Shown here in pieces: positions 4,377-51,005 of a stretch of DNA of 64,000 bases. The stretch covers positions 1 through 64,000 of the forward strand of contig NZ_JNIK01000006.1 of the NCBI RefSeq assembly GCF_000701365.1, read 5' to 3'. Below the pieces are notes generated by a model. That model ran no database searches. It was not told the DNA's origin and worked only from the letters and a program-made list of their open reading frames with translations. This stretch comes from Blastococcus sp. URHD0036 (GTDB taxonomy: Bacteria > Actinomycetota > Actinomycetes > Mycobacteriales > Geodermatophilaceae). The translations under genes and the position numbers were made by a program. Every line of letters starts with the position of its first letter. The stretch's first letter is position 1.

Positions 4377-4442
4377 TGAAGGACCTCCCTGCCCCCCACC
4401 ACTCGCAAGCTCGTGGCGGGCCCCTGCACGGTGGCCGAGTAC

Positions 4443-4471
4443 TTCAGCGCTGAGGTATTCGGGGCTAGGGT
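4443..4471 (+). promoter_or_regulatory. Promoter of the carbamate kinase operon with palindromic candidate operator
   Basis: TAGGGT at 4466-4471 lies 7 bases before the GTG start of the carbamate kinase gene, a leaderless arrangement. The -35 area (4443-4448, TTCAGC) overlaps the perfect palindrome TCAGCGCTGA at 4444-4453. A closely related sequence occurs twice in the fdrA/permease intergenic region (TCAGCGGTGAGA at 13317 and TTAGCGGTGAGG at 13347). A repressor bound here would block the -35. Confidence 0.5.
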
Positions 4472-4478
4472 CGCCGGG

Positions 4479-5444
4479 GTGACCCTCCCCCGCCGCGCCG
4501 TCGTCGCGCTCGGGGGCAACGCGATGACCGGCCCGGACGGCTCCGCCACCCCCGCCGCCCAGCAGGCTGCGCTGCGCGTCGCCGCTGGCCACGTCGCCGA
4601 GCTGGTCGCCGCCGGCGTCGAGGTCGTCGTCACCCACGGCAACGGCCCGCAGGTGGGCAACCTGCTGGTGAAGAACGAGCTGGCCGCACACGAGGTCCCG
4701 CCCGTCCCGCTGGACTGGAACGTCGCCCAGACGCAGGCGACCATCGGGTTCACGCTCGCCGACGAGCTGGACGCCGCCCTCGCGGCCCGCGGACTCCCCC
4801 AGCGGACCGCCGCCCTCGTCACCCGCACGCTCGTCGACCCCGCCGACCCGGGTCTCCGCACGCCGTCGAAGCCGGTCGGCCGCTTCCTCCCCCACGAGCA
4901 CGCCCAGCGGCTCATCGCGCTCGGCCAGACCTGGGAGGACCGCGGGCCCCGCGGCTGGCGGCGGATCGTCGCCTCGCCCGAGCCGCGGGCGGTCGTGGAC
5001 TACCCGGCGGTGCACGCGCTCGTCGCCGCCGGCTTCGTCGTCGTCTGCGCCGGCGGCGGCGGCATCCCGGTGGTGGCGGACGACGGCAACGACCCCACCC
5101 ACCCGGCGCTGCGAGGCGTCGAGGCGGTCATCGACAAGGACCTGACCGCGGCGGTGCTCGCCCGTGACGTCGACGCGGACGTCCTGGTCCTCGCCACCGA
5201 CGTCCCGAACGTCATGGTCGGCTTCGGCACGCCGTCCGCCCGTCCGCTCGGCCGCGTCACGCCCGCCGAGCTGCGCTCGCTCGCCGCGGCCGGCGAGTTC
5301 GCCGGCGGGAGCATGGGCCCCAAGGTCGAGGCGGCCCTGCGCTTCATCGGAGGAGGCGGCGGCCGCGCCGTCGTCACCACGCTCGAGTCCATCACCGACG
5401 CCGTCACCGGGGACGACGTCGGCACCGTCCTGACAGCTCACTGA
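4479..5444 (+). CDS. arcC: Carbamate kinase
   Basis: The 321-residue protein is a textbook carbamate kinase: VVALGGNAM at the N-terminus, [10 protein letters not shown] (near residue 55), the [10 protein letters not shown] nucleotide loop (near 190), [12 protein letters not shown] (near 220) and GSMGPKVEA (near 285). It interconverts carbamoyl phosphate plus ADP with ATP, ammonia and CO2. No arginine deiminase, ornithine carbamoyltransferase or arginine antiporter is nearby, so it is not part of an ADI operon. Instead it is followed after 13 bases by a ring-opening amidohydrolase and lies about 5 kb from ylbE/fdrA-like genes. That set resembles E. coli fdrA-ylbE-ylbF-arcC, where the kinase consumes carbamoyl phosphate from oxalurate breakdown. 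The GTG start is set by TAGGGT 7 bases upstream; an earlier in-frame ATG (4413) would lie upstream of that promoter. Confidence 0.95.
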
Positions 5445-5457
5445 GAAGAGGAACCCC

Positions 5458-6561
5458 GTGCCCGCACCGATCGAGGTCCGCAAGGTCCCGCTGCACAACG
5501 TCAGCGACGCCTCCGAGCTGGCGAAGCTCATCGACGAGGGCGTCATGGAGGCCGACCGGGTGGTCGCCGTCATCGGCAAGACCGAGGGCAACGGCGGCGT
5601 CAACGACTACACCCGGATCATCGCCGACCGCGCCTTCCGCGAGGTCCTGCTCGAGAAGGGCAGCCGGTCGAAGGAGGAGGTCGGGGAGATCCCGATCGTC
5701 TGGTCCGGCGGCACGGACGGCGTCATCAGCCCGCACGCGACGATCTTCGCCACCCTCCCCGAGGACGCGGTGGAGAAGACCGACGAGCCGCGGCTGACCG
5801 TCGGCTACGCGATGAGCGACGTGCTGCTGCCCGAGGACATCGGCCGCATCGCGATGGTGGAGAAGGTCGCCGCCGGCGTGCGCACGGCGATGGAGGCCGC
5901 GGGGATCACCGACCCGGCCGACGTCCACTACGTGCAGACCAAGACGCCGCTGCTGACGATCGAGACCATCCGCGAGGCGAAGTCCCGCGGTCAGGAGACG
6001 TACTACGACGAGCCGCACGGCTCGATGGACCTCTCCAACGGGACGACGGCGCTGGGCATCGCGGTCGCGCTCGGCGAGATCGAGATGCCGGAGCAGAAGC
6101 AGGTCATGCGCGACCTCTCGCTGTTCAGCGCGGTCGCCTCGTGCTCGTCGGGCGTGGAGCTGGACCGGGCGCAGATCGTCGTCGTCGGCAACGCCCGCGG
6201 GCACGGCGGCGCCTACCGGATCGGCCACTCGGTGATGACGGACGCCCTGGACCAGGACGGCATCTGGAACGCCATCCGCGAGGCCGGCCTCGACCTGCCC
6301 GAGCGGCCACGCACCAGCGACCTCGGCGACCGGCTGGTCAACGTCTTCCTCAAGTGCGAGGCCGACCCGACCGGCTACGTGCGCGGCCGGCGCAACGCGA
6401 TGCTCGACGACTCCGACGTCTTCTGGCACCGGCAGATCAAGGCGACCGTCGGCGGGGTCGCGGCGTCGGTGACCGGCGACCCGGCGGTGTTCGTCTCGGT
6501 GGCCGCGGTGCACCAGGGCCCCTCGGGCGGCGGCCCGGTCGCCGCGATCGTCAAGGCCTGA
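5458..6561 (+). CDS. Ring-opening amidohydrolase (barbiturase / cyanuric acid hydrolase family)
   Basis: At 367 residues this matches the AtzD/TrzD/barbiturase family, a small family with three repeated subdomains that each carry a serine-lysine pair. Recognisable blocks are [14 protein letters not shown] (near residue 40), [13 protein letters not shown] (near 80), YVQTKTP (near 162), [10 protein letters not shown] (near 225), [10 protein letters not shown] and the C-terminal [16 protein letters not shown]. The family hydrolyses the cyclic amides cyanuric acid (giving carboxybiuret) or barbituric acid (giving ureidomalonate). It forms an operon with the upstream carbamate kinase (13-base gap with a GAAGAGGA ribosome site). 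The nearby uracil-type permease and molybdenum hydroxylase favour barbiturate as substrate; this is inference, and cyanuric acid cannot be excluded from sequence alone. Confidence 0.9.
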
Positions 6562-9308: not shown

Positions 9309-10391
9309 GTGAACCGACCTGCCGTGACGGCCCACGCGCTGCCCCTGGCGACGCTGGCCGCCGTGGTCGTGACGGACCTCCTCATCGGCCGCGAGCAGGT
9401 GCTGATCAGCCTGGTGGCCATCGCGCCGATGGTCGCGGCGACCGCGCTCGGCCGCCGGGCGACCGCCGGCTACGGCGTCGCCGCCGTGGTCACCGCGGCC
9501 GTGCTGGGCGTGTACGACCAGCAGTACACCGAGACCACCGTGGTGGCGCAGATCGCCCGCATCGTCGGCGTGACCGCTGGTGGGGTCGCGGCCGTCGCCG
9601 CCTGCACGCTCCGCCAGCGCCGCGAGGCGCAGACCAGGCGGCTCGTGGCGGAGCAGGCCGCCGACCGCGCCGTCCTGGAGCTGGCCGAGACGCTGCAGCG
9701 GAGCCTCCTCACCGAGCCGCCGACGCTGGAGCGGCTGACGACGGCGGTGCGCTACCGGCCGGCCACGGTCGGCGCGCACGTCGGCGGCGACTGGTACGAC
9801 GCCTTCGCCGTTCCCGACGGGACGACGATGCTGGTCATCGGCGACGTCGAGGGTCACGACGCCCGCGCCGCGGCGACGATGGCGCAGGCCCGGGGGATGC
9901 TCCGCGGGCTGGCGCAGTCGGTGGTCGGATCGCCCGCCGCCGTGCTGTCGGCCCTGGACCGGGCGCTGCTCGACCTCGACGTCGAGGCGCTGGTGACGAT
10001 CACCGTCGCCACGCTGGACGAGCGCGCCCCGGCCGGAGCCGTGGAGCTGCGCTGGTCCAACGCCGGCCACCCCCCACCGGTGCTGGTCGGTGCCGACGGC
10101 AGCGCCGGCCTGCTGGCCCGGCCGGTCGACCGGCTGTTGGGACTGGACGAGGCCGGGCCCCGGTACGACCACGAGCTGCTGCTCACGCCCGGCGACACCC
10201 TGCTTCTCTACACCGACGGCCTGGTCGAGCGCCGGGACGCACCCCTGGACGACGGTCTCGCGTCGCTCGTCGACCGCCTGCGCGGCTCGAGCGCCCGACC
10301 GCTGGAGGACGTCTGCGACTCCCTCGTCGCAGAGCTCGGCGGGCAGGCCGACGACGACGTCGCCGTGATGGCGCTGCGGGTACGGGTTTAG
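9309..10391 (+). CDS. Membrane-anchored PP2C (SpoIIE-type) serine phosphatase
   Basis: The 360-residue protein begins with three or four hydrophobic segments (about residues 8-100), then a short coiled region (REAQTRRLVAEQAADRAV). The SpoIIE/RsbU-type PP2C domain covers about residues 135-358. Metal-binding motifs are visible: GGDWYDAF, GDVEGHD, LLYTDGLVER and DDVAVMALR. Such enzymes dephosphorylate anti-sigma antagonists (STAS proteins) to release a sigma factor, or other regulators. The first half replaces the soluble GAF/PAS sensor of related proteins, so the signal probably acts at the membrane. A TAGGGT hexamer at 9257-9262 gives a 40-base leader with GAGG before the GTG. It overlaps the convergent ylbE-like gene by four bases. 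Confidence 0.9.
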   Translation: MNRPAVTAHALPLATLAAVVVTDLLIGREQVLISLVAIAPMVAATALGRRATAGYGVAAVVTAAVLGVYDQQYTETTVVAQIARIVGVTAGGVAAVAACTLRQRREAQTRRLVAEQAADRAVLELAETLQRSLLTEPPTLERLTTAVRYRPATVGAHVGGDWYDAFAVPDGTTMLVIGDVEGHDARAAATMAQARGMLRGLAQSVVGSPAAVLSALDRALLDLDVEALVTITVATLDERAPAGAVELRWSNAGHPPPVLVGADGSAGLLARPVDRLLGLDEAGPRYDHELLLTPGDTLLLYTDGLVERRDAPLDDGLASLVDRLRGSSARPLEDVCDSLVAELGGQADDDVAVMALRVRV

Positions 10392-11782
10392 CGAACCTCG
10401 GCGGCGAGCGCGGTCAGTGCCTGCTCGAAGCACTCCCGCGGCGGCTGCACCAGCCCGGCGCCCACCTGGCCGGTGCCGGCGACCCGGCCCGCCATGCCGG
10501 TGTTGATCTGCGGCAGCCACCCGGTGCGCGCCACGGAGACGACGTCGATGCCGGTCGGCGACCCGCGGAAGCCGAGGATCGGGATCGCCATGGCCGGGTT
10601 CTCGGCGAGCGTGAGCTGGTACATCCGCTCGGTCGTGGCCAGGGCGTCGGGCACCGTGCCGCCGACGAACCGGACGATCGCCGGCGCCGCGGCCATGGAG
10701 AACCCGCCGACGCCGTAGGTCTCCATGATGGCGGAGTCGCCGATGTCGGGGTTCGCGTCGTCGGGCCCGTAGTCGCCGAGGTACAGCCCGACCGGGGTCT
10801 GCGCGGGGCCGGTGAACCAGCGGTCGCCGGTGCCGGCGGTCTGGATGCCGAACTCGGTGCCGTTGCGGGCCATGACCGTGACCATGGTCGAGCCGGGGAC
10901 GTCGCGGGCGGCATCCATCGCCAGCTTCGCCGTCGGCATGCCGAGGTTGAGGAAGAAGTGCTCGTTGCCGCCGATGAAGCGCAGCACCGCGGCGATGTCG
11001 GACGACGCCGCGTCCACCTCCACGACCGCGGGCGAGAGCTCGCGCAGCGCCATCAGGGACCCGGCGCGGTTGCGGTTGTGCCCCTCGTCGCCCATCTGCA
11101 GCATCTGCGCGAGCACGGCCTTGACGTCGAGCGGGTCGCTCATCGACCGCACGGCCGCGGCGAGCACCGGCCCCAGCACCTCGCGCATCCAGGCCAGCCG
11201 GGTGAGCACCTCGTCGTTGAAAGCGCCCATCCGCAGCACCTTGCCCAGGCCCTCGTTGAGGTTGCAGTAGGCCTTCCCGCCCTGGACCGGGTCCTCGAGG
11301 CACCACATCCACATGGACGGCGACGTGACCCCGGCCATCGGGCCGACCGCGGAGTGGTGGTGGCACGGGTCGAGGGCGATCTCGCCGGCGGCCAGCAGCC
11401 GCTCGGCCTCCGCCACCGTGGACGCCCAGCCCTCGAACAGGGTGGCCCCGATCAGCCCGCCGCGGAGGGGGCCGCTGGCGTCGGCCCAGGTGATCGGCGG
11501 TCCGGCGTGCAGGATCGTGCGGTCGGTCAGTCCGAGGACCTCGCGCGCCGGGCGGACGTCGGTGAGCACCGAGCCCGCGGCCAGCACCCGCTCGACCGCC
11601 GTCCGGTTGGCCGTGCCCCGGCGCGGGTCCAGGACCAGCGCGGCGAGGTCGGCCGCGTCGCCGAAGCCCGGCGGCCGCCAGTCGACGTCGTGCACCTCGG
11701 CGCCCTGGGCGCGCAGCGCGTCGGAGAAGACGTCGACGCCGGCGGCGACGACGGCGGGCGGTCCGGAGAGCAGCGGGTTCAC
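10388..11782 (-). CDS. YlbE-like DUF1116 protein (putative carbamoyltransferase subunit)
   Basis: The 464-residue protein is a full-length DUF1116 (YlbE/AllG) member. It has the N-terminal VNPLLSGPP start and conserved blocks PCHHHSAVGPMAGV (near residue 145), WCLEDPVQGGKAYCN, GDEGHNRN (near 230), GGNEHFFLNL and RNGTEFGIQTAG. In E. coli the adjacent fdrA (allF), ylbE (allG) and ylbF (allH) products form the oxamate carbamoyltransferase that splits oxalurate with phosphate. Here the start overlaps the end of the fdrA-like gene by four bases, so the two are translationally coupled. No YlbF (DUF2877) gene is in the window. The substrate here is inferred from context (ureidomalonate or another N-carbamoyl amide) and untested. 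Confidence 0.82.
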   Translation of the reverse strand: MNPLLSGPPAVVAAGVDVFSDALRAQGAEVHDVDWRPPGFGDAADLAALVLDPRRGTANRTAVERVLAAGSVLTDVRPAREVLGLTDRTILHAGPPITWADASGPLRGGLIGATLFEGWASTVAEAERLLAAGEIALDPCHHHSAVGPMAGVTSPSMWMWCLEDPVQGGKAYCNLNEGLGKVLRMGAFNDEVLTRLAWMREVLGPVLAAAVRSMSDPLDVKAVLAQMLQMGDEGHNRNRAGSLMALRELSPAVVEVDAASSDIAAVLRFIGGNEHFFLNLGMPTAKLAMDAARDVPGSTMVTVMARNGTEFGIQTAGTGDRWFTGPAQTPVGLYLGDYGPDDANPDIGDSAIMETYGVGGFSMAAAPAIVRFVGGTVPDALATTERMYQLTLAENPAMAIPILGFRGSPTGIDVVSVARTGWLPQINTGMAGRVAGTGQVGAGLVQPPRECFEQALTALAAEVR

Positions 11783-13287
11783 CGCGCGCCTCCCAGCAGG
11801 TCGAGGGCGAACCGGGTGGCCTGCGCGTTGGAGGCGAAGACGTGCGCGCCGGCCGCGGCGAGGGCATCGGCCTGGCGGCTCCAGCCCTGCGGATCGGCCT
11901 CGGTGCCGATCAGCGCGACGACCACCGGCAGCGGACCGGCCCGCCGGGCGGCGGTCAGCGTCGGCACGAGGGCGTGGGTCGGGTCCGGGTCGGCGCCGTA
12001 CCCGAGGACGACGTCGAGCAGCAGGACGGCGGGCTCGCGACGGGCGGCGAGGTTGCTGATCGCCTCGAGCCGCAGGGTCGGGTCGATCATCGGGTGCGCG
12101 CGGCCGACGGTGAGCGCGTCGTCGCCGAAGTCCACGACCACGTGGCCAGAGGCGGCAAGGTTGGGGGCCGAACCAGAAGAGTCGAAACGGTCCGTCCCGA
12201 GGTCGAGGTCGGGGCGCAGTGGCGTGTTCGAGCGGACGTCGCCGAGCACCGGGGCGGCCAGGAGCATCGCCTCGTCGGCCAGCGTGCCGCCGGAGTAGAA
12301 GCCCTTGAGGACGGCGCCCGGGGCGGCCTGCACCTCGGACCCGCTCCGCGACGGCCACGCCGGCACCGCGACGCCGAGGTCGCCGAGCAGCGCCTCGACC
12401 GCGGCGGTGAGGTCGGGCGACTCGGCGCTCAGCGCGGCGGACCGGACCGGGGTGGAGAGGCCGGCCGCCACCTCGGCGACGCGCGCGGCGACCGAGGGCG
12501 CGGGGGGCTTGGACACCAGCAGCACCCGCTCGGTCGCCGGGTCGTCGTCCAGCATCGCCAGCGCGTCCAGGGTCGCGAGCCCGCCGACGGCCTCGGAGAG
12601 GTCCCGGCCACCGACGCCGAGGACGTGCGAGACGCCGACCCGGGCGATGTCGAGCAGACAGGAGACCTGCTGCGCGCCGGTGCCGCTCGCTGCGACCAGG
12701 CCCACCGGCCCCGGGCGGACGACGTTGGCGAAGCCGAGGGCGAGGCCCGAGACGATCGCCGTTCCGCAGTCGGGCCCCATGACGAGGACGCCGGCGTCGT
12801 GCGCGGCGCGCTTGAGCGCGACCTCGTGCTCGACGGGCACGCCGTCGGAGAAGACGAGCACGCTCTGGCCGGCGGCGATGGCGTCGGCTGCCTCGGCGAC
12901 GGCGTACTGGCCGGGCACGCTGACGATGGCCAGGGCCGGGCCGTCGAGCGCGTCGAGGCCCGCGCCGACGGTGCGCACGGGCACGGTCTGTGCCGACGCC
13001 GTACTCCGCTGCCGCTCGGCCAGGGCGGTGTCGACGGCGGCGACCGCGGCGGCCAGCGCGTCGTCGTCGTCCGCCCGGATCGCGACGAGGAGCTGCTCCG
13101 GGGTGGCCGGCTCCTCGGGTGCCAGACCCATCCCCTGGGCCAGCTCCACGTTGAGCGGCGTGGCCATCGCGACGAGCACCGCGGTGACGCCGTCACGGGT
13201 GCCGATGTCGCGGCTGACCTGCATCAGCCGGACCGAGTCGGCATACACGCCGCTGCGTAGTGAGACGTGCCGGGACGGGGCGTTCAC
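11779..13287 (-). CDS. FdrA-like acyl-CoA-synthetase-fold protein (putative carbamoyltransferase subunit)
   Basis: The 502-residue protein has the FdrA layout: an N-terminal region (SGVYADSVRLM), then two succinyl-CoA-synthetase-type domains. These carry VMGPDCGTAIVSG (near residue 190), the AASGTGAQQVSCLL nucleotide-like loop (near 215), GVGGRDLSEAVGG and a C-terminal flavodoxin-like half with KGFYSGGTLADEA. E. coli FdrA is 555 residues. FdrA partners YlbE, and the gene order fdrA-ylbE is kept here with a four-base overlap. The GTG start (VNAPSRHV) faces the permease gene across 142 bases. The pair probably makes carbamoyl phosphate for the carbamate kinase encoded at 4479-5444. Confidence 0.85.
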   Translation of the reverse strand: MNAPSRHVSLRSGVYADSVRLMQVSRDIGTRDGVTAVLVAMATPLNVELAQGMGLAPEEPATPEQLLVAIRADDDDALAAAVAAVDTALAERQRSTASAQTVPVRTVGAGLDALDGPALAIVSVPGQYAVAEAADAIAAGQSVLVFSDGVPVEHEVALKRAAHDAGVLVMGPDCGTAIVSGLALGFANVVRPGPVGLVAASGTGAQQVSCLLDIARVGVSHVLGVGGRDLSEAVGGLATLDALAMLDDDPATERVLLVSKPPAPSVAARVAEVAAGLSTPVRSAALSAESPDLTAAVEALLGDLGVAVPAWPSRSGSEVQAAPGAVLKGFYSGGTLADEAMLLAAPVLGDVRSNTPLRPDLDLGTDRFDSSGSAPNLAASGHVVVDFGDDALTVGRAHPMIDPTLRLEAISNLAARREPAVLLLDVVLGYGADPDPTHALVPTLTAARRAGPLPVVVALIGTEADPQGWSRQADALAAAGAHVFASNAQATRFALDLLGGAR

Positions 13288-13429: not shown

Positions 13430-14905
13430 ATGGCCTTCACCTGGAAGCTCTACGGAGACGGGAAAACGCCCCCGCTGGGCGAGGCGGTGGCACCCGACGA
13501 GCGCCTGACGTGGCCCCGCACGATCGGCATCGGCGCGCAGCACGTCGTCGCGATGTTCGGCGCCACGTTCGTCTTCCCGCTGATCATGGGGCTGGACGCC
13601 AACCTCGCGATCATGATGAGCGGGGTCGCGACGATCCTGTTCCTGCTCATCGTCCGGAACCGCGTCCCCAGCTATCTCGGCACCAGTGCGGCGTTCGTCG
13701 GCGGTGTCGCGGCGATCCGGACCAACGGCGGGGACTCGTCCGACGTGGTCGGGGCGATCCTGGTCGCCGGCGTCGTCCTCGCCCTGGTCGGCGTGCTGAT
13801 CCACTTCGCCGGCCTCGGGGTGATCAACAAGGTCCTGCCACCGGCGGTCACCGGCGCGGTCGTCATGCTCATCGGCTTCAACCTCGCCCCGGTCGCGGCC
13901 AAGACCTACTGGCCGCAGGACCAGTGGGTGGCGCTGGCGACGATGACCTTCGTCATCGTCGCCTCCCTGGCGCTGCGCGGCTTCATCGCCCGCATCGCGA
14001 TCCTGCTCGGCCTCGTGTTCGGCTACCTGCTCTCGGTGCTGCTGGACGCCACGGCCGGACAGATCACGTCGTTCGACCCGAACACCGGCGGGGACACCAC
14101 CCGCGACCGGATCAACTTCGACAGCGTCGGCGACGCCGACTGGATCGGGACGCCGGACTTCACCGCGCCGCACTTCTCGGTGAAGTTCAGCCTCCTGGTG
14201 CTGCCCGCCGTCATCGCGCTGGTCGCGGAGAACGTCGGTCACGTGAAGGCCGTCGCGGAGATGACCAAGCGCGACCTCGACCCGATGATGGGCCGCGCCG
14301 TCGCCGCAGACGGGATCGCGACCGTCATCGCCTCCTCGGTCGGCGGCTCCCCCACGACGACCTACGCCGAGAACATCGGCGTCATGGCCGCGACGCGCGT
14401 CTACTCGACCGCGGCGTACTACGTGGCCGCGATCGTGGCGATCCTGCTCGGCCTGTGCCCGAAGTTCGGCGCGCTGATCAACATCGTCCCGGGTGGAGTG
14501 CTCGGCGGCATCACCGTCGTCCTCTACGGGATGATCGGCCTGCTGGGCGCCAAGATCTGGAAGGAGAACCGGGTCGACTTCGCCAACCCGATCAACCTCG
14601 TGCCGCTCGCGGCCGGGATCATCATCGGGATCGGTGACGTCACCCTGGAGTTCTCCGACGACTTCTCCCTGAGCGGGATCGCGCTCGGCTCGATCGTCGC
14701 CGTCGCCTTCTGGCACCTGGCCAAGGCGCTGGCACCCGCGGACATGCGGGAGGCGCTGACCCGGGAGGGCACGCACCCGGCCGCCGCCTCGACGCTCGGC
14801 CACGGCGCGGATCTCGGCGGGTCGGACCCGTCCTCGCTCGACGAGCTGGAGGCCGGGCGTGCGAGCACCCGGCGCGACGGCACGACGGGCACGCGCGAGA
14901 GGTGA
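13430..14905 (+). CDS. NCS2 family permease, uracil-permease (UraA/PyrP) type
   Basis: The 491-residue protein has about 12-14 membrane segments. It carries the NCS2 signatures VAENVGHVKAVAEM (near residue 270) and GGSPTTTYAENIGVMAATRVYS (in two overlapping parts near 305), whose glutamates bind the pyrimidine in UraA. The TTYAENIGV form is that of uracil permeases rather than of xanthine/urate carriers, which have a QNVG motif. It should import uracil, thymine or a similar ring by proton symport. A GAGGAG ribosome site precedes the ATG. The stop codon overlaps the GTG of the molybdenum-hydroxylase FAD subunit (GTGA), so uptake and oxidation are coupled. The C-terminal 55 residues are hydrophilic and variable. 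Confidence 0.9.
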   Translation: MAFTWKLYGDGKTPPLGEAVAPDERLTWPRTIGIGAQHVVAMFGATFVFPLIMGLDANLAIMMSGVATILFLLIVRNRVPSYLGTSAAFVGGVAAIRTNGGDSSDVVGAILVAGVVLALVGVLIHFAGLGVINKVLPPAVTGAVVMLIGFNLAPVAAKTYWPQDQWVALATMTFVIVASLALRGFIARIAILLGLVFGYLLSVLLDATAGQITSFDPNTGGDTTRDRINFDSVGDADWIGTPDFTAPHFSVKFSLLVLPAVIALVAENVGHVKAVAEMTKRDLDPMMGRAVAADGIATVIASSVGGSPTTTYAENIGVMAATRVYSTAAYYVAAIVAILLGLCPKFGALINIVPGGVLGGITVVLYGMIGLLGAKIWKENRVDFANPINLVPLAAGIIIGIGDVTLEFSDDFSLSGIALGSIVAVAFWHLAKALAPADMREALTREGTHPAAASTLGHGADLGGSDPSSLDELEAGRASTRRDGTTGTRER

Positions 14906-15780
14906 AGCCCGCCCCCTTCCGGTACGCCGACCCCGGCTCCCTCGACGAGGCACTCGACGTCCTCGTCGCCGAGGGAGCGGGCGCCAAGGTGCTCGCCGGT
15001 GGCCAGTCGCTGATCCCGCTGCTCTCGATGCGGCTCGCGGCGCCGGCCACGCTGGTGGACATCAACCGGGTGCCCGACCTCGACACCGTCGAGGCCACCG
15101 GGGACGGCGTCCGGGTGGGGGCACTGGTCCGGCACGTGGGGCTCCTGCACGACGCCGCCGCCGCCCGGGTGCAGCCGCTGCTGGCCCGGGCGACGGCGAA
15201 CGTCGCGCACCCCGCGATCCGGAACCGCGGGACGACGGTCGGCTCGATCGCGCACGCCGATCCGTCCGGCGAGATGACCGCGGTGCTGGCGCTGACCGGC
15301 GGCTCGGTGACGGTGGCGACGCCCTCCGGCCGCTCGACGGTGGGCTGGCGGGACCTCTTCGTGGGGCCGCTGGAGACCTCGGTGCACGGCCCGGCGATCG
15401 TGGTCGACGCCTTCTTCCCCGCGCTGCCGCCACGCTCGGGGACGGCGTTCGCGGAGATCTCGCGGCGCAAGGGCGACTATGCGGTCTGCGGCGCGGGCGT
15501 CGTCGTCACGCTGTCCGAGAACGGGACCGTCTCCGCCGTGCGCGCCTCCTACCTGTCCGTCGGGCTGGTGCCCGAGGTGTACGACCTGACCGACGCGGTG
15601 AACGGCCAGGCTGCCGACTCCGCGGACTGGGCCGCGGCCGGCGAGCTGGCCCGCACGCTCGTGGACCCGGACGGCGACCTGCACGCCAGCGCCGACTACC
15701 GGCGGCTGCTCGTCGGGGTGCTGACCGAGCGGACACTCGCAGAGGCCGCCGCCGAAGCCGTTCTGAGGAGTGCCGCATGA
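14902..15780 (+). CDS. Molybdenum hydroxylase, FAD-binding medium subunit (CoxM/XDH-B type)
   Basis: At 292 residues it has the FAD-binding family layout: LAGGQSLIPLLSMR (near residue 35) and TTVGSIAHADPSGE (near 115) contact FAD, followed by the CO-dehydrogenase flavoprotein C-terminal domain. It passes electrons from the iron-sulfur subunit to FAD. It overlaps the permease stop by four bases and the 2Fe-2S gene by four bases (ATGA), so it lies in the middle of a tightly coupled operon permease-M-S-L-CoxG. The substrate is set by the large subunit. Confidence 0.93.
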   Translation: MKPAPFRYADPGSLDEALDVLVAEGAGAKVLAGGQSLIPLLSMRLAAPATLVDINRVPDLDTVEATGDGVRVGALVRHVGLLHDAAAARVQPLLARATANVAHPAIRNRGTTVGSIAHADPSGEMTAVLALTGGSVTVATPSGRSTVGWRDLFVGPLETSVHGPAIVVDAFFPALPPRSGTAFAEISRRKGDYAVCGAGVVVTLSENGTVSAVRASYLSVGLVPEVYDLTDAVNGQAADSADWAAAGELARTLVDPDGDLHASADYRRLLVGVLTERTLAEAAAEAVLRSAA

Positions 15781-16334
15781 CGTCGGTCGACACCGAGCGC
15801 TCGATCACCGTCACGGTCAACGGGGTTCCACGTGAAGCAACGCTGCCGGTGCGGCGGCTGCTGTCGGACGCGCTGCGGCACGACCTCGGGCTGACCGGCA
15901 CCCACGTGGGCTGCGAGCACGGGGTCTGCGGGGCGTGCACGGTGCTGGTCGACGGGCAGCCGATGCGGTCGTGCCTCGTGCTCGCGGTCCAGGTCGACGG
16001 CGCCTCCGTCACCACGGTGGAGGGCCTCGCGCGCGACGACCACCAGGGCGGGCAGGTGCTGCACCCGGTCCAGGAGACGTTCCGCGAGTGCCACGCGCTG
16101 CAGTGCGGCTTCTGCACGCCGGGCTTCCTGGTCACGATCGCGGCCGGGCTCGAGGCGCGGGACAAGGCTGCGGAGATCACGGAGGAGGAGGTCGACGAGA
16201 TCGTCGGCGGCAACCTCTGCCGGTGCACGGGCTACGCCAACATCAAGAAGGCCGTCCGGCACGCGGCCGCGGCGATGCGCCCCACGGGAGCCGACCACAC
16301 CGGCCACTTCGGCGGCGGGGACGGCGCCTGGTGA
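15777..16334 (+). CDS. Molybdenum hydroxylase, 2Fe-2S small subunit (CoxS type)
   Basis: The 185-residue protein binds two [2Fe-2S] clusters. The plant-ferredoxin-type cluster uses GCEHGVCGACTVLVDG and the later C in MRSC (residues about 43-65). The second, all-helical cluster uses QCGFCTPGF and NLCRCTGY (about 105-150). All eight cysteines are present. It relays electrons between the molybdopterin large subunit and FAD. A C-terminal tail of about 25 residues, rich in His and Gly, is extra. The next gene starts after an 88-base gap with two palindromes, the only break in this operon. Confidence 0.95.
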   Translation: MTSVDTERSITVTVNGVPREATLPVRRLLSDALRHDLGLTGTHVGCEHGVCGACTVLVDGQPMRSCLVLAVQVDGASVTTVEGLARDDHQGGQVLHPVQETFRECHALQCGFCTPGFLVTIAAGLEARDKAAEITEEEVDEIVGGNLCRCTGYANIKKAVRHAAAAMRPTGADHTGHFGGGDGAW

Positions 16335-16349
16335 CCGCTCCCCTGCGCG

Positions 16350-16407
16350 GCATGGGATCCCATACCCCCGTATCCGCGCCTCTGACGTGGGCATGGGATC
16401 CGATGCC
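16350..16407. promoter_or_regulatory. Two GGATCC-centred palindromes between small and large hydroxylase subunit genes
   Basis: GGCATGGGATCC occurs at 16350-16361 and again at 16390-16401, 40 bp apart. The first copy is within the perfect palindrome ATGGGATCCCAT; the second is within GGCATGGGATCCGATGCC, with GGCAT/ATGCC arms. They may be a binding site or paired RNA hairpins that tune expression of the large subunit. No known motif is recognised. Confidence 0.35.
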
Positions 16408-16422
16408 GCGGGAGTCCAGGCC

Positions 16423-18840
16423 ATGACCACCAAGCTGTTCGGCGAGCCGGTCCGCCGGCGCGAGGACGCCCGGCTCATCGTCGGCAGGGGCCGCTACCTC
16501 GACGACATCGGCGCGCACGCCCTCGCCGCCGCCTTCGTGCGCAGCCCGCATGCGCACGCCCGGATCACCGACATCGACGTCGAGGGGGCGCTGGACGTCG
16601 ATGGCCTGGTCGCGATCTACACCTACGAGGACCTCACCGGCCCGATGGCCGAGCCGCTGCCGGTGCTCATCCCCCATCCGCAACTGCACGCGCCGCGCAC
16701 CGGCTACCCGCTGGCCAACGGCGAGGTGAACCACGTCGGCGAGCCGGTGGTCATGGTCGTGGCCACGGACCGCTACGTCGCCGAGGACGCCGCCGAGCGG
16801 ATCGTCGTCCGCTACGAGGAGCTGCCGGTGGTCGTGGGGGTGGACGCCGCGCGCTCCGGCGAGCACGCCGTCCACGAGGAGATCCCGGACAACGTCGCCG
16901 CCCGGCACCACCAGGAGACCGGGGACGTCGAGGCGGCGCTCGCCGCCTCCGCCCGCACGCTCTCCTTCACGCAGTACATCGAGCGCAGCGCGTGCATGCC
17001 GCTGGAGGGCAAGGGCGTGCACGCGCGCTGGGACCCGGCCGATGCCTCGCTGCGGGTCTACTCGAGCACCCAGGCGTCGACGTCGGTGCGGGCGGCGATC
17101 GCGGCGAAGCTGGAGCTGTCGCTGGAGGACGTCGAGGTGATCGCGCCGGACGTCGGCGGCGGCTTCGGCGTGAAGATCGTGCACCCGTGGCCCGAGGAGC
17201 TGCTGGTGCCGATGGCCGCGATCAAGCTCGGCCAGGAGGTGAAGTGGGCCGAGGACCGGCGCGAGCACTTCATCGGCAGCGCCCACGAGCGCCAGCAGCG
17301 GCAGGAGATCACCGTCGGGTTCGACGACGACGGCCGGATCACCGCCCTCGACGTGCACGCCTGGCACGACAACGGCGCCTACACGCCCTACGGGATCATC
17401 GTGCCGATCGTGACGGCGACCCAGCTGGTCGGCCCGTACGCGATCCCCGTCTACCGGGTGGTCGTGGAGAGCGTCTACACGAACACGGTGATCGTGACGC
17501 CGTACCGCGGCGCCGGGCGGCCGCAGGGCTGCTACGCGATGGAACGGACGATGGACCGCATCGCCGACCTCCTCGACCTGGACCGCGCGGAGGTCCGGCG
17601 GCGGAACCTGATCCAGGCCGACCAGTTCCCCTACGACCACCACCTGACGTTCCAGGACGGCCGGCCGGTCATCTACGACTCCGGCGACTATCCGGGGCTG
17701 CTCGCCAAGCTCGAGGCGCTGGTCGACTGGCCGGGCATCGAGGCCCGGCGGGCCGAGGCGGCGTCGCGCGGGAAGCTGCTGGGCGCCGGGATGGCGATGT
17801 ACGTCGAGGGCACCGGCCCCGGCCCGTACGAGGGCGGGCACGTGCAGGTGCTGGGCAGCGGCAAGGTGCTGGTCGCCACCGGCCTGACGTCGCAGGGACA
17901 GGGCCACGAGACGTCGTTCGCGCAGATCGTGGCGTCGGAGCTCGGCGTCCCGATCGAGGACGTCGAGGTGACCACCGGCGACACCCGCCGCTTCCCGTAC
18001 GCGGTCGGCACGTTCGCCTCGCGGGCCGCGGTGATGAGCGGCAACGCCATCGCGCTGGCCGCCCGCGGGGTGCGGGAGAAGGCGCTCCGGATCGCGGCGG
18101 AGGTGCTGGAGGCCTCGCCCGACGACCTGGAGATCGAGGACGGCGTGATCGGTGTCCGCGGGACGCCGGGGGCTTCCATCCCGCTGCGCACGGTCGCCGT
18201 CCTGTCGAACCCGCTGCGGTACGCGTTCGACGAGGCGGCGAAGCAGGCGACGCAGTTCGCGCGGGGCTCGGACGACTCCAAGCCGCCGGTCACCCCCGGC
18301 GACGCGCCGGGGCTGGAGCACCGCGACTACTACTCGCCGATCCGGTCGACTTTCGCGTCCGGTGCCCACGCGGCGGTGGTGGAGATCGACCCTGCTACGT
18401 GGGAGATCGACGTGGTCTCGTACGCCGTGGTGCACGACTGCGGGAACGTGGTGAACCCGATGATCGTCGAGGGCCAGGTGCACGGCGGGGTCGCACAGGG
18501 TGTGGCCGGGGCGCTGTACGAGCGGATGGCCTACGACGCGGACGGGCAGCTGCAGAACGCCTCGTTCATGGACTTCCTGATGCCGTACGCGTCGGAGATC
18601 CCGGACGTCGTGATCGACCACCAGCAGACGCCGTCGCCGCTGAACCCGCTGGGCATCAAGGGCGCCGGCGAGGCCGGCGTCATCCCGGGGACGGCGGCGA
18701 TCGCCTCGGCGATCGAGGACGCGACGGGGCGGCGGATCGCGGCGATGCCCATCTCGCCGACGGAGCTGTACGACGTGATGCGGTCCCCGGACCACGAGCG
18801 GACGGCGGCCGCGGGCCGCAGAGCGGGAGTTGGCGCGTGA
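16423..18840 (+). CDS. Molybdenum hydroxylase, molybdopterin large subunit (non-CODH type)
   Basis: The 805-residue protein is a xanthine-dehydrogenase-family large subunit: GRGRYLDDI at the N-terminus, VGGGFGVK (near residue 245), PYRGAGRPQG (near 362), TGLTSQGQGHETSFAQ (near 487) and GIKGAGEAGVIPG (near 748). The catalytic glutamate is in the last motif. The active-site loop reads PYRGAGR and not the AYRCSFR of form I CO dehydrogenase, so it is not a true CODH. It should hydroxylate a ring carbon with water, using Mo-cytosine-dinucleotide-type cofactor. Linkage to a uracil-type permease and a barbiturase-family enzyme suggests uracil or thymine oxidation to barbiturate; xanthine or another heterocycle is the alternative. 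ATG at 16423 is preferred over 16387 because conserved sequence begins with MTTKLFGEPV. Confidence 0.92.
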   Translation: MTTKLFGEPVRRREDARLIVGRGRYLDDIGAHALAAAFVRSPHAHARITDIDVEGALDVDGLVAIYTYEDLTGPMAEPLPVLIPHPQLHAPRTGYPLANGEVNHVGEPVVMVVATDRYVAEDAAERIVVRYEELPVVVGVDAARSGEHAVHEEIPDNVAARHHQETGDVEAALAASARTLSFTQYIERSACMPLEGKGVHARWDPADASLRVYSSTQASTSVRAAIAAKLELSLEDVEVIAPDVGGGFGVKIVHPWPEELLVPMAAIKLGQEVKWAEDRREHFIGSAHERQQRQEITVGFDDDGRITALDVHAWHDNGAYTPYGIIVPIVTATQLVGPYAIPVYRVVVESVYTNTVIVTPYRGAGRPQGCYAMERTMDRIADLLDLDRAEVRRRNLIQADQFPYDHHLTFQDGRPVIYDSGDYPGLLAKLEALVDWPGIEARRAEAASRGKLLGAGMAMYVEGTGPGPYEGGHVQVLGSGKVLVATGLTSQGQGHETSFAQIVASELGVPIEDVEVTTGDTRRFPYAVGTFASRAAVMSGNAIALAARGVREKALRIAAEVLEASPDDLEIEDGVIGVRGTPGASIPLRTVAVLSNPLRYAFDEAAKQATQFARGSDDSKPPVTPGDAPGLEHRDYYSPIRSTFASGAHAAVVEIDPATWEIDVVSYAVVHDCGNVVNPMIVEGQVHGGVAQGVAGALYERMAYDADGQLQNASFMDFLMPYASEIPDVVIDHQQTPSPLNPLGIKGAGEAGVIPGTAAIASAIEDATGRRIAAMPISPTELYDVMRSPDHERTAAAGRRAGVGA

Positions 18841-19496
18841 ACCTCGAGGGCTCGGCTGTTCTGCAGGGGACGCCGGAGCAGGTGTGGTCGGTGATCACCG
18901 ACCCCGCGGTGCTGGCGCGGACGATCCCGGGCTGTGAGTCGCTGCGGCTGACCGGGCCGGACGAGTACGAGATGAACGTGTCGGTGGGCGTCGGCGCGAT
19001 CCGCGGGACCTATGCGGGTGAGGTACGGCTGACCGACCAGCAGCGGCCGACGTCGTACGTGATGCACGCGTCCGGTGCCGGTGCGCCGGGGAACGCGCGG
19101 GCGAAGGTCCTGATCTCGCTTGCCTCCGACGGCGATGGGGCGACGACGCTGACCTACTCGGCGGACGCCGTGATCGGCGGTCCGGTGGCCGGTGTGGGTC
19201 AGCGGATGATCACCGGCGTCGCGAAGCGGATGGCCGGTCAGTTCTTCTCAGCGATCGACACCGAGCTGACGGGTGCGGGCGAGGCTCGGCCGACGGCTGC
19301 TGCTGTGAGTTCGACAACGGCGGACGTTCCCGCGGGAACGTCTCAGGCCCCGGCACCGCAGGTCTTCACCGGCAGGGCCGCGGCGTCGGCCGGCGCCCAG
19401 GTCGACCTGCGCTCCTTCATGCTCGGCGCCGCTTCCGGCGGCATCCTCACCGCCTGGGGCGTAGCCCTCGGCTACCTCCTCGGCCGCCGCCGCTGA
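18837..19496 (+). CDS. CoxG-like SRPBCC protein with C-terminal membrane anchor
   Basis: The 219-residue protein has a CoxG/SRPBCC lipid-binding fold (residues 1-150, with LQGTPEQVWSVITDPAVLA and the RTIPGCESL block). A low-complexity Ala/Pro linker follows, then a C-terminal hydrophobic helix ending in GYLLGRRR. CoxG proteins recruit molybdenum hydroxylases such as CO dehydrogenase to the membrane and may deliver quinone as electron acceptor. Its GTG overlaps the large-subunit stop by four bases. Its presence implies electron transfer from the hydroxylase to the respiratory chain. Confidence 0.88.
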   Translation: MNLEGSAVLQGTPEQVWSVITDPAVLARTIPGCESLRLTGPDEYEMNVSVGVGAIRGTYAGEVRLTDQQRPTSYVMHASGAGAPGNARAKVLISLASDGDGATTLTYSADAVIGGPVAGVGQRMITGVAKRMAGQFFSAIDTELTGAGEARPTAAAVSSTTADVPAGTSQAPAPQVFTGRAAASAGAQVDLRSFMLGAASGGILTAWGVALGYLLGRRR

Positions 19497-19512
19497 GGAC
19501 TCGGACGCCGCT

Positions 19513-19559
19513 GTGCAGTAGTCCACCTCATGCGTGGTCCATGAGGTGGACTACTGCAC
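19513..19559. terminator. Perfect 20-bp hairpin after the hydroxylase operon
   Basis: The 20-base arm GTGCAGTAGTCCACCTCATG (19513-19532) is followed, after 7 bases, by its exact reverse complement (19540-19559). It lies between the coxG stop and the lipase gene and has no T-run. It is probably the operon terminator, or a dispersed intergenic repeat. Confidence 0.65.
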
Positions 19560-19626
19560 GATCGTGGTGGTGAGGGACCGCTGGGTTCAGTAGCTTCGCG
19601 GGACCGCCCACCCCGGAGGCCTCCCC

Positions 19627-21003
19627 GTGATCGACGCTGCCCACGGACACCACCGCACCATCGGCCGGCCGCTCCTCGCGGTACTGCTGGCCGCGCTCGC
19701 CTTCCTCACCGCCTGCTCGTCGGACTCGGACGACAGCGGTGACGCGTCGGAGGAGACCGTTGAGTCGAGCGCGCCGACGGGGACGGACAACCTCCCGCCG
19801 CTGCCGGACGACGTCGCGCTGCCGATCGTCTTCGTGCACGGGTTCGCGGGGTCGGCCCAGCAGATCGAGTCCAACGCCATGCGGTTCGCGGCCAACGGCT
19901 ACCCCGAGGACCGGATCGTCGCCTACGACCACGACGGCGCCGGTCTGGAGATCGAGGCCTACGCCGCCGGCCTGAGCCAGGTCATCGACGACACCCTGGC
20001 CGAGTTCGACGTCGATCAGGTCTACGTCATCGGCCACTCCCGCGGGACCGCTGTCTCCAACCTCTATCTCAGCGACCCGGCACACGCCGCGCACGTCGCC
20101 AAGTACGTCGCCATCGACGGGCGTCCCTGCCCGGAGCCGGCCGTCGTCCCGTGCCTCGCCCCGACCCAGGCGCTGTTCCCCGGCCAGACGCACGTCGAGG
20201 TCGCCACCTCGAAGGAGTCCTTCGCCGCCCAGTACGAGTTCCTCGTCGGCGAGGCGCCCGAGGTGGTCGACATCGTCCCGCAGAACGACCCGGTCGAGAT
20301 CGCGGGCCGGGCGGTCAACTTCCCCGCGAACACCGGCCGCGAGGCCACCCTCGACATCTGGGCCATCGACCCCGACACCGGCGCCCGCACCGGCGACGAG
20401 CCGCACGCCAGCGAGGTGCTCGGCCCCGACGGCGAGTTCGGCCCGATCGAGCTCGAGAACGGCGCGCACTACGAGTAGGCGCTGAGCAGCGACGCCTCCG
20501 AGATCGTCCATCACCTCTACCTGCAGCCCTACGTGCGCAGCAGCACCTTCGTCCGGCTGCTCTCCTCCGAGCCCGACGGCCCGGTGCGCAGCAACACCAA
20601 CGTCGGCGACGACCACAGCGCGCTCGTCATCACCCGCATGCGCGAGTGGCACGCCGAGGGCGACGCCGACGTCCTCCAGCTCAGCGTCGACGGCGGCGAG
20701 CCCGTCGACGTCGTCACCGACTTCGTGGGCAACGGCGCCATCGGCCTCCACGTCCACGACGACGTCGCCACCCCCGGCGAGACCACTCTCGCGCCGCTGC
20801 CCTACTTCAGCGAGCAGCCCTTCCAGAGCGGCATCGACGTCTACCTGCCCGCCTCGCCCGACGCCGACGGCACCATCACCGCCACCAACCTGCCCCGCGG
20901 CGACACCAGCCGGCCGCAGACGCTCAACGTGCCCAACTGGCCGTCCAGCGGGCACACGGTGAGCCTCGTCTTCACCGACTGGCCGGTGGACGGCGCCGCC
21001 TGA
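19627..21003 (+). pseudogene. AFL-type lipase/esterase lipoprotein interrupted by an in-frame amber codon
   Basis: Codons 1-283 encode a lipoprotein signal (lipobox LTAC near residue 31) and an alpha/beta hydrolase domain with VFVHGFAGSAQQIESN and the nucleophile elbow GHSRGT. A TAG follows at 20476-20478. The same frame then runs open for 174 more codons to TGA at 21001, with normal codon use and recognisable family sequence (YVRSSTFVRLLSSEPDGP, HSALVITRMREWH). The joined length and order resemble the Archaeoglobus AFL lipase family (hydrolase, then C-terminal beta domain), as far as I recall it. A single change from TGG or CAG would explain the stop, so this is a pseudogene, a sequencing error or a read-through gene. 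The first part alone keeps the serine nucleophile. Confidence 0.8.
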
Positions 21004-48920: not shown

Positions 48921-51005
48921 ATGAGCGTCCCGACCGCCGCGCGGCGGATCCGCATCGGCATCGACACGGGGGGCACCTTCACCGACGTCGTCGCGGTGGA
49001 CGAGGAGACCGGGCGGACGGCGACCACCAAGACGCCGTCGACGCCGGCCGACCCCGCCGAGGGCTTCCTGGCCGGCGTCCGCAAGGTGCTCGACCTGATG
49101 GACCTCACCGGGGAGTCGGTGACCGCGGTCAGCCACGGGACGACGGTCGCGACCAACCAGCTCCTCGAGGGCAAGCTCGACCGGATCGGGTTCATCACCA
49201 CCGAGGGCTACGAGTCGGTGCTGGAGATCGCCCGCCAGTCGGTGCCCGACGGCTACGGCAACAGCTACTTCTGGGTCAAGCCGCCGCGGATCGTGCCGGC
49301 CGACCTGGTCCGCACCGTGGGCGGCCGGCTCGCGGTGACCGGCGAGGAGGTGCGCCCCTTCGACCGGGACGACGCCGTGGCCGCCGCCCGCTTCTTCCGC
49401 GACGCCGGCATCACCACCCTCGGCGTCTGCTTCCTGCACTCCTACGCCGACGACGCGCACGAGCGGGCGATGCTGGCGGTGCTCCGGGAGGAGCTGCCCG
49501 GCGCGGTGGTGTCGCTGTCGAGCGAGGTGCTGCGCGAGTACCGCGAGTACGAGCGGTCGGTGACCACGCTGGTCGATGCCGCGGTCAAGCCCCGGGTCGG
49601 CGCCTACGTGACCAACATCCGCACCCGGCTCGACGAGATCGCGCCCGGCGTGCCGTTCTACGTGATGAAGAGCAACGGCGGCGTGCTCTCGGCCGAGGAG
49701 GTCGTGCACCAGCCGATCACCACGATGCTGTCCGGTCCCGCTGCCGGGGCGCTCGGCGCGGCGCTGATCGCCGGAGCAGCCGGGTTCGACCGGGTGCTGA
49801 CCTGTGACGGCGGGGGCACCTCCACCGACGTGACGGTGGTCGTGGACGGGGAACCGACCCTGACCACCGAGGGCTCGGTCGGCGCCTATCCCTCGAAGAT
49901 CCCGATGATCGACGTCGTCACCGTGGGCGCCGGAGGGGGCTCGATCGCCTGGCTCTCCCCGGAGGGCACGCTCAAGGTGGGACCGCAGTCGGCCGGCGCG
50001 GACCCCGGCCCGATCTGCTACCCCTCCGGCGGCGATCGGCCCACCGTCACCGACGCGCACGTGGTGCTCGGCCGGATCCCGCCACACCTGCTGGGCGGGG
50101 AGATCCCGCTGTCGGTGGACGCGGCGCGGGCCGGGCTGCAGCGCCTCGGCGAGTCGCTGGACATGGACCTGGAGCGCACCGCCACCGGCATCCTCGAGAT
50201 CTCCGCGTGGAACCAGGCCAACGCGCTGCGCCAGGTGACCGTCGCCCGCGGCCTCGACGTCCGGGACTTCACCCTCACCACGTTCGGCGGCTCGGGCTCG
50301 CTGCTGGCCTGCCGGCTGATGGACGTGCTCGGCCTCCCGCGCACCCTCGTCCCGCCGAACCCGGGCAACGTGAGCGCCTTCGGGCTGCTCACCGTCGACG
50401 TCCGCAACGACTACGTGCAGACCGTGGTCAGCAAGCACGCCGACCTGGACCTCTCCCGGGTGCGGTCGGTCTACGCCGGGCTGGAGGACCGCGCCCGCGG
50501 GGCGCTGGACGGCGAGGGCTTCGCCCGCGACGAGCAGCGCATGCAGCGGACGGCGGACCTGCGCTACGTCGGCCAGGCCTTCGAGGTCCGGGTGCCCGTG
50601 GCGGACGGCGACCTCGACACGGCCGCCGCCGACGACGTCGCCCAGGCCTTCCACGCCGCACACCGCCAGCTGTACGGCTACGACTTCGCGACCGATCCCC
50701 GCCAGGCCGTCGAGTGGGTCAACCTCCGGGTGAGCGGGATCGGGCCGATCCGCCGTCCCGACCTGGTCGAGCTGCCACCGGCCGCGGGTGGGGCGGACCG
50801 GGCCGTCACGGGCTCGCGCCGGGTGTTCTTCGACGACTGGGTCGACACGCCGACCTACGACCGGATCCGGCTCGCACCGGGCGACGTGGTGGCCGGACCG
50901 GCCATCATCGAGGAGTTCGGGTCGACCGTGCCGGTGCACCCCGGCTTCGCGGCGACCGTCGACGCCCACGGGAACCTGCTGCTCACGAGGGAGTCCGACC
51001 GATGA
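48921..51005 (+). CDS. hyuA: Hydantoinase/oxoprolinase subunit A
   Basis: The 694-residue protein is a HyuA-type ATP-dependent hydantoinase or N-methylhydantoinase A. It has an actin-like ATPase fold with GIDTGGTFTDVVAVDE at the N-terminus, SHGTTVATNQLLEG, YEVMKSNGGVL-like FYVMKSNGG, LTCDGGGTSTDV and GAGGGSIAWL. The family cleaves cyclic amides or carboxylates acetone or acetophenone with ATP. TAAGGT six bases before the ATG suggests a leaderless start. The stop overlaps the ATG of subunit B, so the two form one enzyme. The substrate cannot be read from sequence. Confidence 0.95.
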   Translation: MSVPTAARRIRIGIDTGGTFTDVVAVDEETGRTATTKTPSTPADPAEGFLAGVRKVLDLMDLTGESVTAVSHGTTVATNQLLEGKLDRIGFITTEGYESVLEIARQSVPDGYGNSYFWVKPPRIVPADLVRTVGGRLAVTGEEVRPFDRDDAVAAARFFRDAGITTLGVCFLHSYADDAHERAMLAVLREELPGAVVSLSSEVLREYREYERSVTTLVDAAVKPRVGAYVTNIRTRLDEIAPGVPFYVMKSNGGVLSAEEVVHQPITTMLSGPAAGALGAALIAGAAGFDRVLTCDGGGTSTDVTVVVDGEPTLTTEGSVGAYPSKIPMIDVVTVGAGGGSIAWLSPEGTLKVGPQSAGADPGPICYPSGGDRPTVTDAHVVLGRIPPHLLGGEIPLSVDAARAGLQRLGESLDMDLERTATGILEISAWNQANALRQVTVARGLDVRDFTLTTFGGSGSLLACRLMDVLGLPRTLVPPNPGNVSAFGLLTVDVRNDYVQTVVSKHADLDLSRVRSVYAGLEDRARGALDGEGFARDEQRMQRTADLRYVGQAFEVRVPVADGDLDTAAADDVAQAFHAAHRQLYGYDFATDPRQAVEWVNLRVSGIGPIRRPDLVELPPAAGGADRAVTGSRRVFFDDWVDTPTYDRIRLAPGDVVAGPAIIEEFGSTVPVHPGFAATVDAHGNLLLTRESDR

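Follow-up and report, generated by a model that had tools for sequence, protein, structure and literature searches.

What compound is oxidized by the molybdenum hydroxylase encoded in the operon permease-M-S-L-G of the soil actinobacterium Blastococcus sp. URHD0036? The order of the genes is that of the cox operon of aerobic carbon monoxide (CO) dehydrogenase, and the genes around them point to a pyrimidine. The operon is located in a stretch of 64,000 nucleotides (positions 1 to 64,000 of the forward strand of contig NZ_JNIK01000006.1, assembly GCF_000701365.1), which is referred to below as the window and to which the coordinates refer. We consider it very likely that M, S and L (possibly with G) make up a dehydrogenase for uracil (a pyrimidine) that belongs to the xanthine oxidase family and would open the oxidative pyrimidine pathway. 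The locus as a whole probably represents a new variant of this pathway, one that would produce carbamoyl phosphate downstream of its uracil/thymine dehydrogenase. We infer all reactions in this organism from gene content, residue signatures, conserved linkage and co-occurrence; by sequence, uracil and thymine are inseparable as substrates. The operon itself, the barbiturase signature, the linkage and the missing cysteine of CO dehydrogenase are established.

All five open reading frames are present in one tight operon on the forward strand (13430–19496). Neighbouring frames overlap by 4 bases and the sole gap, of 88 bases, separates S from L (16335–16422). The domain set of M-S-L is that of a three-subunit molybdenum hydroxylase of the xanthine oxidase family, with the FAD, double 2Fe-2S and molybdenum-cofactor domains all found (Pfam). 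The sequence-only reading, which had likened the M-S-L-G arrangement to the cox operon and placed the operon at 14902–19496, was right as to the frames, their order and their domains (COXG included); the permease, which it counted as the first gene, falls just outside those coordinates. The genes of the operon and the barbiturase gene are the following.

13430–14905, + strand: uracil-type NCS2 permease (Xan_ur_permease, 268.7 bits, Pfam)
14902–15780, + strand: M, FAD subunit of the molybdenum hydroxylase (FAD_binding_5 and CO_deh_flav_C, Pfam)
15777–16334, + strand: S, 2Fe-2S subunit (Fer2 and Fer2_2, Pfam)
16423–18840, + strand: L, molybdenum-cofactor subunit, proposed catalytic chain of uracil dehydrogenase (Ald_Xan_dh_C, MoCoBD_1 and MoCoBD_2; NF040766, 1446.1 bits)
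18837–19496, + strand: G, CoxG-like protein with a hydrophobic C-terminus (COXG, 98.2 bits)
5458–6561, + strand: barbiturase (PF09663, 490 bits)

Barbiturase acts on the compound that a uracil dehydrogenase should form, and the barbiturase encoded 8 kb upstream of the dehydrogenase genes, in the same window, is the strongest evidence for the uracil reading, one that the sequence-only reading had not drawn on. Its best match in the PDB is 5hwe, “Barbiturase” (627 bits), and the other six matches do not exceed 320 bits (the next one, at 320 bits, is a cyanuric acid hydrolase). The protein carries N194, H324, K328, V348 and A349, i.e. the full signature Asn194, His324, Lys328, Val348 and Ser/Ala349 given for barbiturases in section 12 of PMC3758960, where the group includes Blastococcus and Geodermatophilus. 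A barbiturase query gave at least 80 loci, the best 80 of which were used. With the window's own copy included, all five Bar-type residues are found in 80 of 81 places (61 NHKVA and 19 NHKVS), the last one reading IHKVA.

Co-occurrence was assessed in 325 genomes of the class, with matches counted once per genome. L is present in 70 of them and a barbiturase/AtzD protein in 74; both occur together in 69 genomes (69/70 of those with L, 69/74 of those with barbiturase/AtzD, p = 2e-63). By genus, with genera counted by hand, 33 of the 34 that have L also have barbiturase/AtzD (p = 2e-23). The two genes share one contig in 44 of the 69 genomes and are within 40 kb of each other in 42. The count of L includes a match of 881 bits at a contig edge, which is under the cut-off of 950 (G119), and that of barbiturase/AtzD includes a 25-residue fragment (G023). 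Second matches in the same genome are omitted, namely L in G051 (878 bits) and G183 (834 bits), the transcarbamylase subunit AllG in G007 (24.8 bits) and a second barbiturase fragment in G209.

Three further genes of the window belong to the surroundings that are shared with relatives.

4413–5444, + strand: carbamate kinase (AA_kinase, 101.1 bits; TIGR00746, 321.5 bits; true start probably closer to 4494)
10388–11782, − strand: AllG (YlbE) transcarbamylase subunit (PF06545 AllG, 319.6 bits; start picked at 11782)
11779–13287, − strand: AllF (FdrA) transcarbamylase subunit, divergent from the permease (PRK06091, 397.4 bits; PDB 3dmy FdrA, 225 bits; start picked by eye)

Of 51 barbiturase loci (L002–L052), many of which end at the flank or at a contig edge, 48 show carbamate kinase, 40 AllF, 31 the permease and 30 M. 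Where AllF is present and more than 2.5 kb lies beyond it (20 loci), the divergent gene is the permease in 16 cases and M without permease in 4. Two Modestobacter loci (L019 and L028) display a single run CoxD-CoxE-XdhC-barbiturase-permease-M-S-L-G-HyuA-HyuB. In Embleya (L121), CoxD-CoxE-XdhC is accompanied by AllG-AllF-AllH divergent from PucR-permease-M-S-L-G, and past G, on the opposite strand, barbiturase, carbamate kinase, carboxyltransferase and CoA transferase are encoded. Twenty neighbourhoods of L, hand-picked from L-bearing genomes (18 of them with AllG) and therefore not random, contain a PucR-like gene in 19 cases, AllG together with AllF in 18, G in 18, the permease in 17, HyuA in 11, a recognisable AllH in 10 and an amidase in 5. 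Maturation genes of the XdhC/CoxI and CoxD/E types recur across clusters, as do PucR-type regulators, and amidase-signature genes are found in the clusters of several relatives.

A comparison with the Rhodococcus gene region had been proposed from the sequence. To our knowledge, uracil/thymine dehydrogenase (EC 1.17.99.4), defined by the conversion of uracil into barbiturate and of thymine into 5-methylbarbiturate, is without an assigned gene; work on it reportedly used the enzyme from a strain of R. erythropolis. The comparison came out in favour of the proposal, as R. erythropolis NBRC 15567 (L062) has a related M-S-L-G set beside barbiturase. The order of its genes is XdhC, PucR, permease, carboxyltransferase, CoA transferase, PucR, barbiturase, amidase, an aminotransferase-like gene (named by eye), permease, M, S, L, G and HyuA. 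Barbiturase occupies positions 10001–11095 of this locus and M-S-L-G positions 15813–20297, M beginning 4.7 kb past barbiturase with a permease before it. The two barbiturases are 79.7% identical, and L of R. erythropolis (1401 bits on NF040766) is 60% identical to L of the window. Taken with the barbiturase of the window and the co-occurrence in 69 of 70 genomes, this arrangement supports the earlier suggestion that M-S-L-G encodes a candidate uracil/thymine dehydrogenase.

The pathway of R. erythropolis (uracil/thymine dehydrogenase, barbiturase, ureidomalonase) was described in the 1950s and ends in urea and malonate, according to an excerpt of PMC3758960. In contrast, the barbiturase of the window adjoins carbamate kinase and AllF-AllG is present as well, while in NBRC 15567 an amidase adjoins barbiturase and the genome gives no AllG match. 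An amidase-signature gene lies directly past barbiturase in five loci of Rhodococcus/Rhodococcoides (L060, L062, L064, L067 and L070) and is a candidate ureidomalonase gene.

The active site of L was inspected next to that of CO dehydrogenase. When L is aligned with the CoxL chain of PDB 8uem, its loop PYRGAGR, which begins at base 17500, faces AYACSFR, so the cysteine of CO dehydrogenase is replaced by glycine in L. All L subunits long enough to contain the loop have PYRGAGRP (27/27, counting the copy of the window); the L fragment of L078, which stops short of the loop, is left out of this count. The GEAG motif, which we take to hold the catalytic glutamate, is located at 18667. A G-A-G loop is not diagnostic of a pyrimidine substrate: “form II” enzymes have the loop AYRGAGR, which occurs in other molybdenum hydroxylases too (excerpt of PMC13240472). 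The loop speaks against CO and not by itself for uracil. The sequence-only reading had used it for both purposes; the replacement of the cysteine motif stands, and the value of the loop as a pointer to pyrimidines does not.

Its description of the permease as UraA-type was borne out. The motif TTYAENIGV spans 14357–14383, and the closest relative among solved structures is a uracil permease (209 bits in the PDB vs 61 bits for a uric acid-xanthine permease). The Rut pathway is probably no explanation for a uracil permease in the 75 genomes searched for RutA, because RutA is over its cut-off in none of them (0/75; weaker homologues in 27). As for the electron route, G terminates in a hydrophobic segment (residues 194–212, mean hydropathy 1.45). 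CoxG is a menaquinone-binding membrane protein according to an excerpt of PMC13240472, and it is plausible that the CoxG-like anchor would direct electrons to quinone and the respiratory chain.

The reactions may be arranged as follows. Uracil would be brought in by the permease and then, in all likelihood, hydroxylated at C6 with water by MSL, yielding barbiturate; the electrons would pass from Mo through 2Fe-2S and FAD to the quinone pool by way of the CoxG-like anchor. Barbiturase almost certainly would open the ring of barbiturate to give 3-oxo-3-ureidopropanoate. The two following steps are rather likely: AllF-AllG together with AllH, encoded elsewhere, and phosphate would convert 3-oxo-3-ureidopropanoate into malonamate and carbamoyl phosphate, and carbamate kinase would use carbamoyl phosphate and ADP to form ATP, ammonia and CO2. 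The last step is put forward tentatively and with somewhat less than even confidence: an amidase may turn malonamate into malonate, which a CoA transferase may then activate. The CoA transferase and carboxyltransferase genes in the clusters of relatives would fit such a use of malonate.

The new element here is the combination of carbamate kinase adjoining barbiturase with AllF/AllG divergent from the permease; many Actinobacteria have preserved this arrangement. In the window the kinase gene ends 13 bases ahead of barbiturase. Among the 325 genomes, carbamate kinase is present in 116, AllG in 79 and AllH in 71, AllH being found only where AllG is present (71/71). Of the 67 genomes that hold both the kinase and barbiturase, 59 have the two no more than 1.5 kb apart. 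All 59 have AllG, compared with 9/15 of the other barbiturase/AtzD genomes (p = 3e-5), and AllG is also present in 67 of the 70 L genomes. A test on 29 named genomes, with L002 left out, gave AllG in 18/21 with the adjacent kinase vs 2/8 without it (p = 0.004); the three adjacent-kinase genomes that lack AllG (L058, L072 and L079) are all records of metagenome-assembled genomes.

In E. coli, AllF, AllG and AllH are the subunits of oxamic transcarbamylase, which forms carbamoyl phosphate from oxalurate (excerpt of PMC11326118). The genome resembles the E. coli allFGHK set in having members of the AllG and, probably, AllF families and a carbamate kinase in the window and AllH elsewhere. The proposed substrate would be the same kind of acylurea as well, since 3-oxo-3-ureidopropanoate can be regarded on chemical grounds as an N-carbamoyl amide acid like oxalurate, one CH2 longer. 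The difference is that the set of the window is linked to barbiturase and a molybdenum hydroxylase and not to allantoin genes. AllH (contig 5; L082, 7925–11178) is paired divergently with a gene 34% identical to a PucR regulator of the Rhodococcus cluster; in other genera the AllH/PucR pair lies inside the cluster block.

A number of observations weigh against this scheme. RutG is the best NCBIfam model for the permease and its cut-off is not reached (382.9 vs 758.65 bits). AllG is over its Pfam cut-off, but carbamate kinase is under that of TIGR00746 (321.5 vs 358 bits) and AllF, which also matches FdrA of PDB 3dmy, under that of PRK06091 (397.4 vs 433 bits); AllH, over its cut-off, is on contig 5 and not on the contig of AllF-AllG. 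The window yielded no relative for amidase, CoA transferase, XdhC or CoxD/E, the search for XdhC and CoxD/E having covered the window and not the whole remainder of the genome. The best amidase match in the genome (40%, contig 18) has no pathway neighbours in the 20 kb examined there, and none of the pathway queries scores above 60 bits in the 20 kb past the window. The co-occurrence tests ignore kinship below genus, and L was scored on at most three candidates per genome. Five of the 74 barbiturase/AtzD genomes lack L; four of these (G031, G093, G100 and G122) hold low-scoring members, at 291–439 bits, which are possibly not barbiturases, and the fifth (G020, 478 bits) is a draft of 380 contigs. 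AllG without barbiturase/AtzD occurs in 11/325 genomes, and R. jostii carries a lower-scoring AllG (247 bits). One genome with L (G266) has permease-M-S-L-G-HyuAB and no barbiturase anywhere, and the Rhodococcus plasmid pRZP2 has the same genes and no barbiturase within the 32 kb mapped. Finally, curated models give other names to L and to the ring opener, as discussed below.

The alternative that survives best accepts the dehydrogenase and the barbiturase as proposed and lets AllFGH and carbamate kinase serve oxalurate from purines, with ureidomalonate broken down hydrolytically, as in Rhodococcus, to urea and malonate. We regard it as possible, though rather unlikely. It would agree with the action of the E. 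coli enzyme on oxalurate (PMC11326118, seen in excerpt), with the amidases of several clusters and with the 11 genomes that have AllG and no barbiturase/AtzD. However, AllD (ureidoglycolate dehydrogenase), the oxalurate source of the E. coli route and the one such source tested, is over its cut-off in 0/79 genomes (weaker homologues in 17), and the window's own genome lacks a match to it at E<=1e-20; of 14 control genomes, 4 (including that of E. coli) match and 1 exceeds the cut-off. Because AllD is over its cut-off in none of the 79 genomes, their AllFGH probably has a substrate other than oxalurate. Carbamate kinase, moreover, adjoins barbiturase in the 59 genomes that all have AllG, while AllG is absent from 4/5 of the Rhodococcus/Rhodococcoides genomes with an amidase next to barbiturase and carbamate kinase from all five of these loci (0/5) within the flank examined.

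It is improbable that the enzyme oxidizes a purine or another N-heterocycle (xanthine, hypoxanthine, nicotinate or a modified pyrimidine) and merely lies in a nucleobase island. Such enzymes belong to the same family, the best PDB match of L is quinoline 2-oxidoreductase, and the recurrence of PucR-type regulators would suit this explanation. On the other hand, L stays under the cut-offs of the models for XdhA, the molybdenum subunit of xanthine dehydrogenase (384.9 vs 780 bits on NF043082 and 366.4 vs 916 bits on PRK09970), the permease is closer to that for uracil than to that for uric acid and xanthine, and the barbiturase/AtzD of 69 out of 70 L genomes would be superfluous for a purine enzyme.

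An aerobic CO dehydrogenase is hardly credible, although NCBI's own model names L so: on NF040766 (CODH_aero_grp5, “aerobic carbon-monoxide dehydrogenase large subunit”) it scores 1446.1 bits, over the cut-off of 950, and the M-S-L-G order and the CoxG-like protein would agree with this name. This candidate was rejected on the loop, in which glycine replaces the cysteine of AYxCSFR, and on the model scores, L being under the cut-off of the CoxL equivalog TIGR02416 (464.8 vs 991.15 bits). The uracil-type permease and barbiturase would have no role in CO oxidation. Form I CO dehydrogenase, with the cysteine motif, has been validated by experiment, and the activity of form II is called unresolved in an excerpt of PMC13240472. 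L resembles form II in its score and in a loop ending RGAGR, but it has PYRGAGR instead of AYRGAGR (Ala to Pro), and its genomic context is that of pyrimidine breakdown. NF040766 matches barbiturase-linked enzymes (barbiturase/AtzD is present in 69 of the 70 sampled genomes that have L). Its name looks wrong, and the data suggest that this curated family is misnamed.

That the ring opener is a cyanuric acid hydrolase in a cluster for s-triazine degradation is very improbable and was rejected on specificity residues: the protein is of the same family as AtzD and passes the cyanuric acid amidohydrolase model NF052395 (470.5 bits vs cut-off 360), but this pass is, in our judgement of the residues, outweighed by the Bar-type set, with 0/5 of the AtzD-type residues (Arg195, Thr321, Arg325, Gly345 and Gly346 in AtzD numbering) at the equivalent positions and the PDB barbiturase at 627 bits vs 320 for the next match. 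At Arg188 of cyanuric acid hydrolase, Gln is reported for barbiturases in PMC4051656 and Asn is found in the set of PMC3758960 section 12; the latter set is explicit, and the protein of the window carries it in full.

The clusters that have no barbiturase nearby direct attention to a pair of genes which is also present in the window.

48921–51005, + strand: HyuA, hydantoinase/oxoprolinase A (72% identity to the Nocardioides cluster copy; only genome match at E<=1e-20)
51002–52897, + strand: HyuB, hydantoinase/oxoprolinase B (68% identity to the Arachnia cluster copy)

In many other uracil clusters the HyuA/HyuB pair comes after G (e.g. 13820–17844 in L103 and 18283–22320 in L120), while that of the window is at 48921–52897. 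Because the pair is present without nearby barbiturase in G266 and pRZP2, HyuAB may open the ring of barbiturate or 5-methylbarbiturate, an alternative that we consider doubtful. Taken jointly, the propositions would be these: oxidative pyrimidine breakdown that conserves ATP is widespread in Actinobacteria; the family NF040766 consists of uracil dehydrogenases instead of CO dehydrogenases; AllFGH acts as a general acylurea transcarbamylase and here phosphorolyses 3-oxo-3-ureidopropanoate, with carbamate kinase drawing ATP; and HyuAB is the ring opener of a second variant without nearby barbiturase (G266, pRZP2). For all of them to hold together, the chances appear about even.

If the assignment of M-S-L is true, uracil/thymine dehydrogenase, with which the oxidative pyrimidine pathway begins, gains a sequence, and the phosphorolytic branch, if true, would mean ATP from pyrimidine breakdown. 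A misnamed curated family of “CO dehydrogenases” could inflate genomic estimates of CO oxidation. Among the matches listed in the open-licence literature there is no gene for uracil/thymine dehydrogenase and no AllFGH acting with barbiturase, and an earlier account of the barbiturase neighbourhood is possible; PMC11898903 and PMC7662398 name barbiturase in their reference lists only.

The gap between S and L (16335–16422) contains two near-palindromic copies of CATGGGATCC, at 16351 and 16392. As an operator CATGGGATCC was dropped, since its 5 hits in the window (at most one mismatch) vs 3.3 expected are not above chance. Exact CATGGGATC has one hit in the loci of 14 relatives, near a permease start, and none in their S-L gaps (one locus ends before the gap). 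Directly past G, on the same strand, a lipase-like protein (Lipase_C, alpha/beta hydrolase) is encoded at 19627–20478; it is apparently unrelated to the operon.

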